Below, piece after piece: positions 18,145 through 49,941 of a stretch of DNA of 57,591 bases (position 1 is the stretch's first letter; the number at the start of each line of letters is the position of its first letter). The stretch covers positions 265,657 through 323,247 of the forward strand of contig JAQTRS010000001.1 of assembly GCA_028711705.1 (NCBI GenBank), written 5' to 3'. The notes beneath the pieces are model-generated. The model saw only the letters and a program-made list of their open reading frames with translations. It made no database searches and had not been told where the DNA came from. The DNA comes from Candidatus Moraniibacteriota bacterium. GTDB taxonomy: Bacteria > Patescibacteriota > Minisyncoccia > Moranbacterales > UBA1568. Made by a program: the position numbers and the translations under genes.

Positions 18145-18990
18145 TCATTTACCATTAATTAGGGCTATATTCCTCTTGTAAAAATCGTATGTCTCCTGCA
18201 AACCCTGTCCCATAGGCGTCAATCCGACATTTTCTATAAGCGCATTACTCGCCAATGGGCACACGAGGGTTTCCTGCATACCCTTATCGATAACAGCTAC
18301 CTTTTCATAGATCGATTCTTCGATATGAGAAATCACCTCTCCTAATGTCAGTAATTGTTGCGTCCCAAGGTCGGTGGATCCGTCATAGGATGCCTCGATG
18401 GCAAATCGGACGAATTTGGCCATGTCAGCGGCAAACATAAAATCACGCTTCGCATTCATATCGAAAATTTCCGTCGGCGCATGCATCAGATGATTGCACA
18501 GCACATTGGCGACAAAACTTCCCTGCTTGAATGGTATCTGATACTTCCCAAATATGTTGAACAGCCGGAAAATGACCGGTTTTATGTCATTCGCTTTCGC
18601 ATGCTGCGAAATCACCGATTCAAGGATCGCTTTTCTCTGAGCGTATTCGGAAGTGGGATTGGCATACAGCACTGCCGACGAAAAAAGTATGATCTGAGCA
18701 TTATCCGCGAACCGTATATTGCCAAGCAGCCGCCTCTCCTGTCTCTCAAACTCATCCAGGGATATGGCATTATCAATCAGATGGATCACGATATCAAATT
18801 CCCCTTCGATCCTCTCGGCATAAGGATTCGCGGAAATATACGCATCATTTCGATCTCCTTGAAAAAAAGGTGATTTTGCCACGCCGACAGAATGACACCT
18901 ATAATCGGCGCCCAATTCATCGACGATATTCCTCCCGATAAACCCCTCTCCCCCAAGAAGCAAGATATTTTTCTTATGTGAGCTTAACAT
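18145..18990 (-). CDS. NAD-dependent epimerase/dehydratase (SDR)
   Basis: 'ILLLGGEGFIGRNIVDEL', 'SEYAQRKAILE' YxxxK. Confidence 0.85.
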   Translation of the reverse strand: MLSSHKKNILLLGGEGFIGRNIVDELGADYRCHSVGVAKSPFFQGDRNDAYISANPYAERIEGEFDIVIHLIDNAISLDEFERQERRLLGNIRFADNAQIILFSSAVLYANPTSEYAQRKAILESVISQHAKANDIKPVIFRLFNIFGKYQIPFKQGSFVANVLCNHLMHAPTEIFDMNAKRDFMFAADMAKFVRFAIEASYDGSTDLGTQQLLTLGEVISHIEESIYEKVAVIDKGMQETLVCPLASNALIENVGLTPMGQGLQETYDFYKRNIALINGK

Positions 18991-21900
18991 AATATATCAT
19001 TGTACAGCTTTTTATAATTTTCCGCCAGCATGCCCACCGAAAATTTTTCTTCGACCAGCTTCCTCGCGTTTGAAGAGACTTCCTTCCTCATCTCCGGATT
19101 TTTAATGATCAATTCCAACTTTTTCGCTATTTCATCAGAATTATTCGGTGGTACAAGAAAGCCTGTCACCCCTTCGCTGACGGCGTCGCCTACCCCGCCG
19201 ACATTGGATGCCACCACGCAGACGCCCATTGCCATAGCCTCGATATTCGAAAGCGGAAAACCTTCCATCTTCGACGGCAAGACGAATACATCAGCGGTGC
19301 TCAAAAACCTCGAGATATCCTCTTGATACCCCAAATACTTGATATTGCCGCCGACCGATCCGATAGACTTTTCAATCGAAACCCTCATAGGACCATCCCC
19401 CACGACAAAAAATTTCATTCGATCATTATTCATGATCAGTTTTCTCGCAGCTTCGACAAACACATCCGGATTCTTTTCCGGAGATAGCCTGCCTATGAAA
19501 TATACGGCCAAATCATCTTTTTTCAAATCTAGCTTCTCCCTTTCGCGATACCTATTATACTTTGACGGATCGAATCTGCCATAGCAATCGATACCATTAT
19601 AAATCACGCACACTGAACTCTTCCGGATTCCTTCTTCCAAAAAAGCCGCCCTAACTTTCATGTTATCCGTCGTATGGATATCGATCAAACGGCCCGCTGA
19701 AATAGAGTTCCTCAAATGATCGGCAAGCGTATTGAAAACGGTACTCACTATTTTGATATCCGGAAACTTCTCTTTAACGGTCGGCAAAGAGCTATAAAAA
19801 AAGCTGTTATGCACGATATGTATGATATCGATACTCCTTGTCCTTATATAGTTCAATACGAATTCGAGGTATTCATCCTCCCTCCGGAAAAGATTCGGCA
19901 GATGATAGATATTGCTCGTGATCTCTTTGAACTTATATTCCCATTCATTATCGCTCTTATGTCCGGTTATGATGGAAAAGTTGAATATGTCCTTATTTCT
20001 CAAGCAAAAATTATATACCACCGTCTCAGCGCCACCAAATGTCAGCCATGGCATAATCAACAGGACATTCTTACGATCTAAACTTCCCCGCAAATACTCC
20101 TTCTCATCGAAAAAATTTATAAGCTGGCTGTGTCCGGAGAATATGTATTTCTCTATGGGAACGCCGCGCGCGCTTTTATGAAAATTTGGATGCAGCTTAT
20201 GGATTTTTTGAATGTGCTCATCCTTCTTTTTCTTATCCTCAGTATACCGGGAATCGGCGGCCCTCCGGTATAGAAACAGGGGCTCCGGAATTCTCCTGGC
20301 TACAGCGCCGGATTCTACGGCATTCATCCAAAACTCCCAATCCTCGAATCCGATTCCTGATTTGTATCCCCCGCACTTCTCCCACATGGATCGCCTAAAA
20401 ATGGCGGCTGTGGTGATGATATTATTTTTATAGAGAAGCCTCGGGTTAAATTCCGGTTCCTTGTACACCCTTTCTTCCAATCCAAAAAAATGCATATCGG
20501 AATACACGATATCAATACCCGGATTTGACTCCAAAACGACCAGGGATTTTTCCAAATAAGTGGCATCGATCTTATCATCTGAATCCAAGCAAAGGATGTA
20601 CTTCCCCTTCGCACCCTTAATGCCTTTATTTCGAGCCATCGATACGCCCGCATTGCTTTGGGAAATCTTAATGATTTTGGGATGATTGATCGATTCGAAC
20701 ACATCATTGCTTTCAGTGTCTGTCGAGCCGTCGTTCACGATGATGTATTCAAAATTCTGGAATGTCTGGTTCAAAACGCTCTCAACGGTTTCATTGATCG
20801 TTTTTCCATGGTTATAAAATGGCGTGACGACGGAGATCAATGGACCATCCCATTTCGCGTTGCTGACCTTCTTCGTAATTACTTGGTATTTTTTAGGTAA
20901 AAATTGCCGAGCAATCTCCCGAATGTCTTCGTTCAGGTATTTTTTTGCAGCGCGCAGCAATCGAGCCTCGATTTTCGATTTGATGGTTCTCGCATGATAC
21001 ATGTACACCCTCAACTTATCACGCAACAAGATGACCGGACGGATTATACGGGAATGATACAAATCGTAAAGAGCATCCTCTTTTTCCTGCAGCAAGGCGC
21101 TGTTCTTTTCGATAATAAGGTCTTTTTCCCTTAGAGGAATGTTATTTTGCTGGATTATTTGCTCTTTTCTGAAAAACAGACTCGGGTCAAGGGCGACCTC
21201 GCGACCGGATAGCGCTATCAAATCAGAAACGGTGAAACCATAACGGCTACTCAATATCTCCAATGACGCCTGATCATGGGCCAGCCTGAAAAGCAAAGAG
21301 ATCCCGAAGATTTTATGCGAAATCGTGATATCGTTGTTTAAAGCCAACAGGGCAATGTTATATCTGACATCGATATCATCCTGAATCGGCACGCCTTCCA
21401 GCTCCGGAAAGACTATTTTCACTTCAGTCGCATCAAGATTTAGAAAATTGTCCAGCATAAAAATCATCTCCCATGCGGTTCGTATCCGTTTCTCCGGCTT
21501 ATCCGCACTGATATTCTGACTCTTACTCCTGATCCTATACTTCAATAGCCTTTCCGGCATTATATGGACTTCATATTTCTGACATAACCTGATCCAAAAA
21601 TCCCAATCAGGAACCTGCGCGAACCGCTCGTCATAATAACCGATCCCCCGATAGCAATCCCGCCTGATCAACGCGCTGGGATGAGCGAAGTTGTTTTTTC
21701 CAAAAAAGGCTTCTCTCATCCATCCATACCTGCCCCTATTCTCCTGTTCGAAGTGAACATGATCGAACAGATTCTTGTCAAAAAATTCGTTGCCATCCTC
21801 GTCTATCGGCAAAAGATGCGACACGACCGCTCCGAAATCCCCATGATTATCAAGAAATTCCACCTGCTTTTCCAGCTTATCTTCTACGAACACATCATCG

Positions 21901-22166
21901 GAATTCATCATCGCGATATACTTCCCGGAAGAATTCCGGATGCAATGATTGACGGCAGCAGAAGCTCCTTTGTTCTTATCGAATATGAATAATTTGATTC
22001 TCTTGTCAGTAAACTTTTTGATTTCCTGCACCGTGTCATCGGAAGATCCGTCATCGGTGATAATCAATTCGAAGTCCTGAAAAGTCTGATCCAATATGCT
22101 TTGGATGCACTCTGAGACATACTTCTCATGATTATACGATGGTAAGACGACACTTACTTTTGGCAT
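18984..22166 (-). CDS. Three-domain glycosyltransferase fusion: GT2-GT2-GT4 (1060 aa)
   Basis: Two GT2 starts ('VSVVLPSYNHEKYVSECIQSILDQTF', 'ISVVTPFYNHGKTINETVESVLNQTF') then GT4 ('LTFGGAETVVYNF', 'YFIGRLSPEKNPDVFVEAA', 'PSKMEGFPLSNIEAMAMG'). Confidence 0.92.
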   Translation of the reverse strand: MPKVSVVLPSYNHEKYVSECIQSILDQTFQDFELIITDDGSSDDTVQEIKKFTDKRIKLFIFDKNKGASAAVNHCIRNSSGKYIAMMNSDDVFVEDKLEKQVEFLDNHGDFGAVVSHLLPIDEDGNEFFDKNLFDHVHFEQENRGRYGWMREAFFGKNNFAHPSALIRRDCYRGIGYYDERFAQVPDWDFWIRLCQKYEVHIMPERLLKYRIRSKSQNISADKPEKRIRTAWEMIFMLDNFLNLDATEVKIVFPELEGVPIQDDIDVRYNIALLALNNDITISHKIFGISLLFRLAHDQASLEILSSRYGFTVSDLIALSGREVALDPSLFFRKEQIIQQNNIPLREKDLIIEKNSALLQEKEDALYDLYHSRIIRPVILLRDKLRVYMYHARTIKSKIEARLLRAAKKYLNEDIREIARQFLPKKYQVITKKVSNAKWDGPLISVVTPFYNHGKTINETVESVLNQTFQNFEYIIVNDGSTDTESNDVFESINHPKIIKISQSNAGVSMARNKGIKGAKGKYILCLDSDDKIDATYLEKSLVVLESNPGIDIVYSDMHFFGLEERVYKEPEFNPRLLYKNNIITTAAIFRRSMWEKCGGYKSGIGFEDWEFWMNAVESGAVARRIPEPLFLYRRAADSRYTEDKKKKDEHIQKIHKLHPNFHKSARGVPIEKYIFSGHSQLINFFDEKEYLRGSLDRKNVLLIMPWLTFGGAETVVYNFCLRNKDIFNFSIITGHKSDNEWEYKFKEITSNIYHLPNLFRREDEYLEFVLNYIRTRSIDIIHIVHNSFFYSSLPTVKEKFPDIKIVSTVFNTLADHLRNSISAGRLIDIHTTDNMKVRAAFLEEGIRKSSVCVIYNGIDCYGRFDPSKYNRYREREKLDLKKDDLAVYFIGRLSPEKNPDVFVEAARKLIMNNDRMKFFVVGDGPMRVSIEKSIGSVGGNIKYLGYQEDISRFLSTADVFVLPSKMEGFPLSNIEAMAMGVCVVASNVGGVGDAVSEGVTGFLVPPNNSDEIAKKLELIIKNPEMRKEVSSNARKLVEEKFSVGMLAENYKKLYNDILC

Positions 22167-35385: not shown

Positions 35386-36639
35386 TTATGCTGGAAATGA
35401 CCTTGTTACCTTGCTGTGCAGATACTCATAATATTCCTTGTTCTGCGCATTGGCGGTCGTATACTTCTGCATCGCTTTCGCTTTGGCCTTCTCGCCCATC
35501 GCGGTGCGCAACGGTGCGTCCTCGATCAAACGACACAGTTTTTCCACCCATTCTTCCGTCGTACTGGCGACAAAACCGTCCACGCCATCCTCGATCGCCT
35601 CCTTATACGGCGCCGTGGCCGAAGCGACGGTCGGCACGCCAACGATGCCGGCCTCGAAAAACTTGAGCTCCGATTTGGATTCGCAGAACGGGTTGCCGAT
35701 TTCGAGCGGCGCAAGGTTGATATCCACCGAAGCGACATTGGCGAAATGCTGCGCCCTCGCTGCATACGGGAACTGCTCTATCCTGTCCGCAAAAACGCTG
35801 AGTTTGCTTTCGGTTTCCAATGGTCCCACCAAGAACAATCTAGTCTGCGGATATTTTTCAAGCACTGTCGCCAGCGCATCCGTAATCGTCGCGAAGTCCT
35901 TGTTATGGCTCAGGGTACCGCTGAAATAGCCGATCTTGATGGTATTTTTCCGATTGTCATCCCGAGCATAGTCGAGGGATCCCTTTGCTACTGAAGCAGA
36001 TTCTTCGACAAGCTCAGAATGACACTTGTTTGCAATAACAGCTTCCGCTACCGCCACATCCTCCTGCGTCAATTTATTGGGCACGATAAATACCCGCTTT
36101 CCTTTCTCGCGTAATTTCTCCGCCAAAAAAGTCGTGGTCGTGGTGCAGACTTTCACATATGGATCATTCAATATCTCCCCGCCCACGCCGTTCTCATACA
36201 ATTTCCTTTCCAAATTGTTCATCTTCTGGAAATAGTCCATAAACTTCAGGTACTGCGGATCGAACACCAGATCATCCGTCTCGAAGATGATTTCCTTGTC
36301 CTGCGCCTTGATACGTTCCATCAATTTGGCGACACTGGGCGTATAGAGCACGCGATGGAAAATGAAGACAGAGAATTTGTCCGCATAGCTCGGCAAAAAC
36401 GGATTATCCTGCACCGTGATACCGGTCGTAAGCCCCTGGATTTCCAATTCCTCGGCCACGTGATGCGCGCGATACAGGGCGCTATCCCCCACTCCGCCCG
36501 TGATAAATAGCACATCGCCCGAACCCACCCGTCGGAACAATGCGAAAAACGCCTTGGAAACGCGCCGTCCTCCGCGCCACAAACCTTCCCGTTTCAGGGT
36601 ATGCAAGGCCTTCCCGATTTTTATGAGCAAGAGGTTCAT
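35386..36639 (-). CDS. Glycosyltransferase (GT-B, GT4/GT1-like) carrying an in-frame repeat-derived peptide
   Basis: C-terminal 'FFEAGIVGVPTVASATAPYKEAIEDGVDGF'; 'KIGYFSGTLSHNKDFATI'; internal 'CHSELVEESASVAKGSLDYARDDNRK'. Confidence 0.85.
   Translation of the reverse strand: MNLLLIKIGKALHTLKREGLWRGGRRVSKAFFALFRRVGSGDVLFITGGVGDSALYRAHHVAEELEIQGLTTGITVQDNPFLPSYADKFSVFIFHRVLYTPSVAKLMERIKAQDKEIIFETDDLVFDPQYLKFMDYFQKMNNLERKLYENGVGGEILNDPYVKVCTTTTTFLAEKLREKGKRVFIVPNKLTQEDVAVAEAVIANKCHSELVEESASVAKGSLDYARDDNRKNTIKIGYFSGTLSHNKDFATITDALATVLEKYPQTRLFLVGPLETESKLSVFADRIEQFPYAARAQHFANVASVDINLAPLEIGNPFCESKSELKFFEAGIVGVPTVASATAPYKEAIEDGVDGFVASTTEEWVEKLCRLIEDAPLRTAMGEKAKAKAMQKYTTANAQNKEYYEYLHSKVTRSFPA
35955..36024. 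repeat. Dispersed imperfect palindromic repeat, copy 1, inside a CDS
   Basis: TGTCATCCCGAGCATAGTCGAGGGATCC ... AGATTCTTCGACAAGCTCAGAATGACA. Confidence 0.85.
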
Positions 36640-40770: not shown

Positions 40771-41181
40771 ATGAACATTCAACGATTTACAACTATTTTC
40801 AAGCAAGATGGTTTCTGGCTGATGCTTCATTTCCTGCTTCGTGACGCGCTCGCGCTTTCCCTCCTCGCCTTCGCGGGATTGATGACCATCGAGGGCCTGA
40901 TGCCCGGCTTCGTCTCCGGTCACCTCAATCTCGCCAAAGTCCTCTTTGCCATCGCGCTGCTTTTCTTCGCTTTCATCGGCATCGGACAACAACCAGCCTT
41001 CGCTAAAGCTACGGCGTGGCAAGGAAAAACTTCAAAATGGCTGATTACAGGGTTGCTTTTTTGGTCTTCTCTTCTGATTCTCAATTCCCTTATCAAATTC
41101 CCGCTCTACGCCATCGTCATCACCTTCCTTTTGACAGCCGTCATCGGGAAACTTTTGTACGACGAATTCTTCACGAAATAA
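40771..41181 (+). CDS. Hypothetical 4-TM membrane protein with an in-frame 'PAFAKATAWQGK' peptide
   Basis: 136-aa ORF, hydrophobic segments, Gly/Ala/Lys-rich insert between TM2 and TM3. Confidence 0.6.
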   Translation: MNIQRFTTIFKQDGFWLMLHFLLRDALALSLLAFAGLMTIEGLMPGFVSGHLNLAKVLFAIALLFFAFIGIGQQPAFAKATAWQGKTSKWLITGLLFWSSLLILNSLIKFPLYAIVITFLLTAVIGKLLYDEFFTK

Positions 41182-42376
41182 TATACTCCATCGTCTCTTT
41201 CGCGCATTTGTCCCAGGAGAACTTTTTGATATTCTCATACCCTCGGCGTATCATCGCCGCACATAAAGATTCTTCCGTCCAGAGCGATTCGATACGCGAC
41301 GCGAGCTCCGAGACATTGAGCGCCTCGAAATACAGCGCCGCATCCCCGCCCACTTCCGGCAGGCTGGAATTATTGGAACAGATTACCGGGGTGCCCGCCG
41401 CCATCGCCTCAAGCACCGGGATGCCGAACCCCTCGTAAAGTGACGGGAAAACGAACATCTTCGCCTGCGCATAGAGCGCCGCCAAATCCCGGAATGAAAC
41501 CTTGCCCGTCACGATAATGTCCTCACGAAACGGATGCTTCTCGATCATATCGACCGTCTCTTTCCAAAGCCACGCTTTTTCTCCCGCCAAGACCAGTTTC
41601 ATATCCGGGTGGCGCTTATGTTCCAATTCGAACGCCTCAAGCAGCACCAAGATATTCTTGCGCGGCTGGATGGCCCCGACATAGAGGAGGTATTTCTTCG
41701 TTTCCAAAGAATACTTTTTCAAGATATTGTCCTGAACCTCTCTTTTGTCATCCTGAGCGTAGTCGAGAGATCTACCGGTATTCTGAGAAGATTCTTCGAC
41801 AAGCTCAGAATGACCACTCAAAGACTGTTGTTGAGTGTTAATTGTTAATTGTTGACCGTTCTCAAATCCATGGTAAATCACGCGAATCTTGGAGGCATCC
41901 ACATCAGGATACCATTTCAGGATATCTCGTTTGGTGGATTCCGAAACGGCGATCAACTTATCCGCCTTCCTCACCGCGAAGTCCGCGAACATATGCAATC
42001 GCCGCTGATCCTTTTTCGGGAAGTGATCCGGAAAGTATTTGAAGGCCAAGTCATGGATGGTCACCGTCGTCTCGATGCCCTTGGGCAAAAAAAACGGCAA
42101 AGCCTGCACCGGCATCCAGAGTTTCTCCGGCCGCAACTTCCACATCTCCCACGCGAAGCGAGTCTGCGTCCAATAGAAAGGCACCGTCACGGTGTGGACG
42201 GTATAATTCGGAAAAGTCGGAGGCACAAGTTCCGGATTGAAAGCGCTTCGATGATATAAATGCCACTGATTCGATGGATCGATCATGCCGAAACGCTTCA
42301 AAAGCTGCGACAAATACACGCGCGTCCCGTCGATGCGATCGGCATCCAGATCTGCCGCCTGTACAGCTATGTTCAT
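41171..42376 (-). CDS. Glycosyltransferase family 4 carrying an in-frame repeat-derived peptide
   Basis: 'TVTIHDLAFKYFPDHFPKKDQRRL', 'YLLYVGAIQPRKNILVLLEAF', 'FPSLYEGFGIPVLEAMAAGTPVICSNNSSLPEVGGDAALYF'; internal 'GHSELVEESSQNTGRSLDYAQDDKRE'. Confidence 0.93.
   Translation of the reverse strand: MNIAVQAADLDADRIDGTRVYLSQLLKRFGMIDPSNQWHLYHRSAFNPELVPPTFPNYTVHTVTVPFYWTQTRFAWEMWKLRPEKLWMPVQALPFFLPKGIETTVTIHDLAFKYFPDHFPKKDQRRLHMFADFAVRKADKLIAVSESTKRDILKWYPDVDASKIRVIYHGFENGQQLTINTQQQSLSGHSELVEESSQNTGRSLDYAQDDKREVQDNILKKYSLETKKYLLYVGAIQPRKNILVLLEAFELEHKRHPDMKLVLAGEKAWLWKETVDMIEKHPFREDIIVTGKVSFRDLAALYAQAKMFVFPSLYEGFGIPVLEAMAAGTPVICSNNSSLPEVGGDAALYFEALNVSELASRIESLWTEESLCAAMIRRGYENIKKFSWDKCAKETMEYIIS
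41746..41814. repeat. Dispersed imperfect palindromic repeat, copy 2, inside a CDS
   Basis: TGTCATCCTGAGCGTAGTCGAGAGATCT ... AGATTCTTCGACAAGCTCAGAATGAC. Confidence 0.87.
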
Positions 42377-45648: not shown

Positions 45649-45662
45649 TGATATAGGGGGGA

Positions 45663-45740
45663 GAAAAAATGTTTCGGATTTCACTTCGCGGCCTGAGCGA
45701 GTACGCAACGGCCACTACGCAAAACCCGAAACATTTTTTC
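45663..45740. terminator. Long hairpin with 15-bp perfect outer stem between the 45763 gene and MFS gene
   Basis: GAAAAAATGTTTCGG ... CCGAAACATTTTTTC. Confidence 0.7.
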
Positions 45741-45762
45741 TTAAATAGTGCGGGAGGTGGGT

Positions 45763-49741: not shown

Positions 49742-49941
49742 GGAGGTGGTTAGAGATTGTATACTTATTTTCAAACCCGCCAGACCGGCGCTATCATTTA
49801 TAATCCTTCTCGAGATAGAGAAAAAATAACATCCACGCAAGTCTTGCTTTCGTATATCTATCATCTCACCGCGCCTCCAAATGGCGGGATTCGAAAATAA
49901 GTATGCAATCTCTTGCTGTAACGTAAACGAAAAAATTGATA

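Follow-up and report, generated by a model that had tools for sequence, protein, structure and literature searches.

Two different glycosyltransferase genes in the window (the whole stretch of 57,591 nucleotides that was analysed) carry the same palindromic element, in the same reading frame and at the same interdomain linker. Why should one short repeat be found twice at equivalent points of two proteins? An earlier note on this DNA, which had pointed out the pair, offered two readings: the linker is a tolerated landing site for the element, or the peptide that the element encodes is selected. We have compared the two genes with their orthologues, and the element with related repeats within the genome, across its order and in the literature. 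The results favour the first reading.

Two repeat copies in glycosyltransferase genes

Copy 2 of the element (41746-41814, minus strand) is a 69-bp head-to-head dimer of TGTC-tagged REP-like monomers, as judged by its sequence, its similarity to other genomic copies and its hairpin, whose predicted DNA folding energy (dG -13.8, compared with -6.6 in shuffled sequences; z = -3.6) is well beyond chance. On the plus strand, its 69 bp begin with TGTCAT and end with ATGAC. In the coding sense, a 5' arm (GTCATTCTGAGCTTGTCGAAGAATCT; 41789-41814), which is identical in copy 1, is followed by a 15-nt spacer (41774-41788) and by a 3' arm formed by the inverted monomer (AGATCTCTCGACTACGCTCAGGATGACA; 41746-41773). 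The host gene (41171-42376, minus strand) is a 401-aa ORF coding for a GT4-family GT-B glycosyltransferase, with the N-terminal domain (PF13439) extending to residue 171. The minus-strand reading of the repeat in this ORF is GHSELVEESSQNTGRSLDYAQDDKRE, ca. 23 residues, and the linker peptide in frame is [G]HSELVEESSQNTGRSLDYAQDD. The placement of the element in frame in this gene, reported in the earlier note, is confirmed by both the sequence and the ORF. Its position immediately before the second Rossmann domain has to be corrected, since native residues, VQDNILKKYSLETK (helix 212-221 in the structure model), separate the insert from the sequence KYLLYVGAI.

The copy-2 linker contains a second addition. 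An AT-rich tract, AACAATTAACAATTAACACTCAACAACAG (41815-41860, minus strand), encodes the stretch QQLTINTQQQSLS that precedes the repeat and is missing from the orthologues too, so that the net insert relative to the orthologues is ca. 30 aa, not 23. The tract was also considered as a second repeat family and rejected, its frequency being no higher than that of a reversed control.

The copy-2 enzyme has a predicted fold that matches the structures of MshA, BshA, and GlgM; by its profile, it matches GlgM and enzymes related to it. In a structure model, built on a shallow alignment of 10 sequences, the C-terminal Rossmann domain is confident, while residues 174-210, which contain the insert, have pLDDT values below 50. 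The model is also poor over the N-terminal 100 residues because the alignment is shallow, and disorder of the insert beside the folded C-terminal domain is therefore suggested by the model rather than proved.

Copy 1 (35955-36023, minus strand), a REP-like dimer of the same length, encodes CHSELVEESASVAKGSLDYARDD in frame in a neighbouring gene (35386-36639, minus strand; 417-aa ORF). The product is a divergent GT-B glycosyltransferase, with PF00534 at residues 231-387, whose profile found no relative among solved structures at E 1e-4. By Pfam, both host enzymes are of the GT4 type, and the C-terminal glycosyltransferase domain (PF00534) starts at residue 216 in the copy-2 enzyme and at residue 231 in the copy-1 enzyme. 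The copies share the 5' arm, have similar 3' arms and are read in equal frames; within each gene, both arms are in the same frame. The further observations of the earlier note, that two different GT-B enzymes share the element, its frame and its linker and that the frame stays open across the palindrome, hold for both genes: copy 1 lies in the equivalent linker, both ORFs read through the repeat, and the glycosyltransferase motifs are conserved. Elsewhere in the window, 18984-22166 encodes a 1060-aa protein in which GT2-type and GT4 glycosyltransferase domains are fused.

The repeat family

A DNA similarity search of the genome revealed the second copy and seven further places (E from 7e-13 to 7e-4). 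A covariance model built from seven copies, themselves dimers, found ca. 13 related sites in the 1.16-Mb genome, the weakest being other stem types. Five of these sites are in frame in long genes, namely the two window glycosyltransferases, a third glycosyltransferase, CysS, and RtcB. The typical site pairs two monomers in inverted orientation, each with a TGTC or CGTC tag at its outer end (mostly TGTC; copy 2 has GGTC at one of its ends, and CGTC is present in one copy of this genome and at other loci). The first stem bases are AT in every aligned copy (GTC-AT...AT-C). By inspection, the monomer is made of ATTCT/AGAAT, a tandem GA and a GC pair; when the dimer is folded, pairing between the two arms is favoured. 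The tail is CT or TCT in repeats of the copy 2 type, and CCA tails are present in other REPs of the same order. With a model that was itself built on dimers, the copies are mainly head-to-head dimers, and one tail-to-tail case was found (genome G031). Across the seven copies, there was no excess of compensatory base changes, a sign of a selected hairpin. Four palindromic elements with differing stem types are clustered within 2.6 kb of the same genome (G000:C9:179185-181816; L012, L017, L019, L021). The window itself contains three further inverted repeats, at 2318-2433 (30-nt arms, 97% complementary, 56 nt apart, ACCAATGACCAAAATCC-like sequence), at 45662-45741 (32-nt arms, 81% complementary) and at 49752-49913 (27-nt arms, 89% complementary).

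Within the order, the element is carried by 26 of the 57 genomes searched and is patchy even within genera. Among the matches listed, more than 100 stretches contain the exact 26-mer arm; most are from Bacteroidota and Clostridia, and others from Balneolota, Chloroflexia, Deferribacteres, Pseudomonadota, and SR1. The patchy occurrence, together with the presence of the arm in many phyla, fits a repeat that has spread, rather than one inherited with a gene. Spread by plasmids was rejected, the element having no match in a plasmid collection; in viral sequences, the exact 26-mer was found in five viral contigs only. A literature search for the arm sequence found no paper on repeats in which it is printed.

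By its sequence, the element appears closest to the CGTC-tagged REP superfamily (PMC3733652). As described there, CGTC REPs have CGTC (often TGTC) at one end of the monomer, AT as the first stem residues, a stem of 8-9 bp, a loop of 4-5 nt and a short unpaired tail, usually but not universally CCA, and form mainly head-to-head dimers. The element of the window is similar in its (C/T)GTC terminal tag, in the AT at the start of the stem and in being mostly a head-to-head dimer, and, as with the described repeats, it is present in several phyla, lies in some cases in frame in conserved proteins and has no dedicated transposase. It is set apart by its stem (ATTCT-GA-GC...TCGAAGAAT) and by its TCT tail in place of the usual CCA.

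According to PMC3733652, the superfamily includes protein-coding palindromes of Rickettsia, RPE-4 and RPE-6 being of the CGTC type, and intragenic CGTC and GTAG repeats are found in many species, where neutrality through flexible linkers or loops has been proposed. The Rickettsia palindromes (RPEs, work of Ogata and Claverie) are in frame inside conserved housekeeping proteins, and the enzyme that was tested, guanylate kinase, retains activity (reviewed in PMC2229807). The element studied here is also a small in-frame palindrome in conserved proteins, but its lineage and, by description, its sequence differ, one linker has been hit independently by different repeats, and Rickettsia is absent among the exact-arm matches listed. 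Short palindromes, dimers and occasional intragenic copies are also features of GTAG REPs and RAYT REPtrons; unlike these, the window element has no GTAG tag, and no flanked RAYT gene was found. MITEs such as ERIC or Correia (NEMIS) are likewise non-autonomous inverted repeats that can fuse in frame to ORFs (PMC2229807), but the window element is much shorter. Since in-frame Rickettsia palindromes and intragenic CGTC and GTAG repeats have already been described, the element belongs to a known kind.

No Y1 transposase was detectable in the genome of the window (PF01797 is absent), and, in its relatives, RAYT-like genes do not regularly have the element beside them; on these grounds, mobility driven by a RAYT was rejected for this genome. 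Across genomes, the presence of REPs and of PF01797 was weakly correlated (18/8/13/18, p = 0.06). The absence of a flanking transposase agrees with the published view that CGTC repeats have no dedicated transposase. The mobilising enzyme was probably supplied in trans or has been lost from this genome.

The interdomain linker in orthologous enzymes

None of the 29 orthologues of the copy-2 enzyme that were sampled contains the repeat, and their linkers are short; the excess of ca. 30 aa at residue 176 is seen in the window protein only. An orthologue of this enzyme in G038 (L028) has a 37-aa insert in another loop, made of an unrelated C-rich palindromic sequence (CTCTCCTTGGATAAGGAGAG...CCCCCTCCTTATCAAGGAGGGGG).

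The copy-1 enzyme was compared in 55 sequences. Insertions of at least 6 aa occurred only at the interdomain linker (ca. residues 196-234), and were present there in nine sequences. REP-type dimers occupy the linker in five genomes: that of the window, G038 (a dimer similar to the window's, in another frame), G008 (a heterodimer of two other REP types), G011 (a dimer with a different stem) and G031 (a tail-to-tail pair). The linker of G047 contains an unrelated perfect palindrome, and those of G052, G046, and G056 contain non-palindromic or tandem-repeat DNA; in G035, a further hairpin is present with no added length. Because the inserts are unlike one another in sequence, architecture and frame, and the genomes that have them span several families, they are most simply explained as independent events.

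Recurrent insertion was also seen elsewhere. In a further GT4 enzyme of G052 (L237), an element occupies the corresponding linker, and GT4 enzymes have a second site in the loop that follows the first C-terminal domain helix (L011 in the genome of the window, L046 in G016). In TsaD, different REP dimers are in the same loop in the congeneric genomes G016 (L216) and G022 (L350); divergence was too high for this comparison to reveal an exact empty site, and it was the comparison that exposed the second, different REP. An AT-rich addition is found at this loop in TsaD of G001 (L346). Class I tRNA synthetases of G031 (L214) and G011 (L230), which are from different families, have different palindromic inserts in the same loop, just ahead of the AWTTTPWTL motif.

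Different repeats have thus entered the same linker repeatedly, which supports the linker as a tolerated landing site. Of the two readings offered in the earlier note, this one is upheld; selection of the peptide was rejected, since at the same linker the peptides vary, as do the subfamily, orientation and frame of the repeats, and some of the inserts are not REPs. The note had also proposed a survey of insert positions in related GT-B proteins, and had held that random frames and positions would make the pair a coincidence. Frames do vary in the survey; positions are not random.

Linker recurrence could partly reflect a target preference besides tolerance. A stronger proposal is that the linker is the preferred DNA target of the mobilising enzyme, i.e., a true insertion hot spot. 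The very strong concentration of several unrelated repeat types in one linker of one enzyme family would be expected from it, and REPs are reported at about the same site in recB of two Xanthomonas species (PMC3733652). Yet the use of the same linker by unrelated palindromes and tandem-repeat DNA would not be explained by a sequence-specific enzyme, the sites are united by protein loops (in TsaD, tRNA synthetases and glycosyltransferases) rather than by a shared DNA motif, and no common flanking sequence was apparent by eye in the aligned sites. We consider a true hot spot improbable.

Coding context of the repeats

In the genome of the window and related genomes, 98 sites, the best-scoring matches, were examined. 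At 32 of them, the element is within an ORF of at least 200 aa that stays open through it, and 29 of these ORFs have Pfam support. The proteins concerned are GT4 glycosyltransferases (6), class I tRNA synthetases (CysS, ArgS, two of the I/L/M/V group), RtcB, TatD, IPP transferase (MiaA type), RrnaAD (KsgA type), UvrD, QueA, TsaD, LigA, FemAB, WecG, an integrase, and Wzy-type membrane proteins. GT4 enzymes account for more of the 29 copies than expected (6, where their share of coding DNA is taken to be 2.5 to 4%; p = 7e-5 to 9e-4), and the interdomain linker is likewise over-represented among GT4 copies (4 of 6; p = 5e-4 if the linker makes up 8% of the protein); these p values are post hoc, depend on background fractions that were assumed, and treat two orthologues as separate counts. 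Lengths divisible by three are enriched in in-frame copies (16/8/8 versus 15/14/37, p = 0.008; p = 0.053 when repeats of the repeat-rich genome G052 are removed).

Phase use in the 29 Pfam-supported copies (1:9:19) did not differ significantly from that expected from stop codons (4.2:10.3:14.5; p = 0.14), and gave p = 0.03 against a null from all copies. The frame of the CHSELVEES type was used by 19 of the 29 (one-sided p = 0.03). In the sample of 26-mer sites from other phyla, among the matches listed, all displayed long ORFs read CHSELVEES or, on the other strand, ILRQAQND. The ORFs with the identical 26-bp arm in these distant phyla (L078-L157) code for, e.g., PrmC-, TilS-, and ketoacyl-synthase-like proteins; in a Flavobacteriaceae genome, outside the order, the arm directly precedes the catalytic domain of a PrmC-like methyltransferase (L135).

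These frame preferences, and the presence of the repeat in two glycosyltransferases of one gene cluster in the same frame and linker, are what could be expected if the peptide were functional, e.g., if it served GT-B enzymes in binding or regulation, and were under positive or purifying selection. The insert is nevertheless absent from the 29 orthologues of the copy-2 enzyme and from most of those of the copy-1 enzyme, where orthologues do have an insert at this linker, the peptides, repeats and frames are others, the same peptide is found in unrelated proteins (CysS, RtcB, TsaD, LigA, and others), and the insert is predicted to be disordered. A function of the peptide is, in our estimate, slightly less probable even than a hot spot. 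The bias towards the CHSELVEES frame looks as if peptides of one kind were tolerated rather than functional, and the bias towards CHSELVEES and ILRQAQND in the sample from other phyla may reflect tolerance of these peptides. Least credible of all is a single event in which duplication or gene conversion between the two glycosyltransferases produced the pair: the pair does share its 26-bp arms exactly, as well as its length of 69 bp and its frames, but the copies are only 83% identical with different spacers, the distantly related enzymes align by BLASTP over a weak 97 residues (32% identity, the repeat itself included), and the insert is missing from every sampled orthologue of the copy-2 enzyme.

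Discussion

We propose, with a probability of about 0.86, that a mobile or formerly mobile REP dimer of ca. 70 bp, with TGTC/CGTC tags, entered the linkers of two GT-B enzymes in frame and was retained because these linkers tolerate additional hydrophilic residues. REP dimers would insert at many places, and the element is indeed repeated within the genome and across genomes. Copies that break genes would be lost; those that survive in coding DNA would be the ones that, by their length and frame, leave the ORF open and that add their peptide to a flexible loop. Both window ORFs are intact, their inserts are absent from orthologues, and different REPs recur in the same linker. Insertion as an event and neutrality of the survivors would complete this scheme.

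Intragenic REPs as such were already known. The new part is that one linker has been occupied repeatedly and independently by different repeats in multiple genomes. At least five different REP dimers, as well as other palindromes and repeats, in one linker, with no other site of insertions of at least 6 aa in the copy-1 enzyme, provide a direct comparative test that separates a tolerated site from a selected peptide. For annotation, segments similar to CHSELVEES or SLDYARDD should be regarded as repeat-derived and ignored in homology work. The repeats are also a natural record of the protein positions that accept extra residues. More speculatively, a small and predictable set of loops (GT-B linkers, the TsaD loop and the class I tRNA synthetase loop) might serve throughout the order as docking sites at which palindromes of many families become coding sequence; invasion by REPs would then steadily supply proteins with new linkers, perhaps tuning domain motion.
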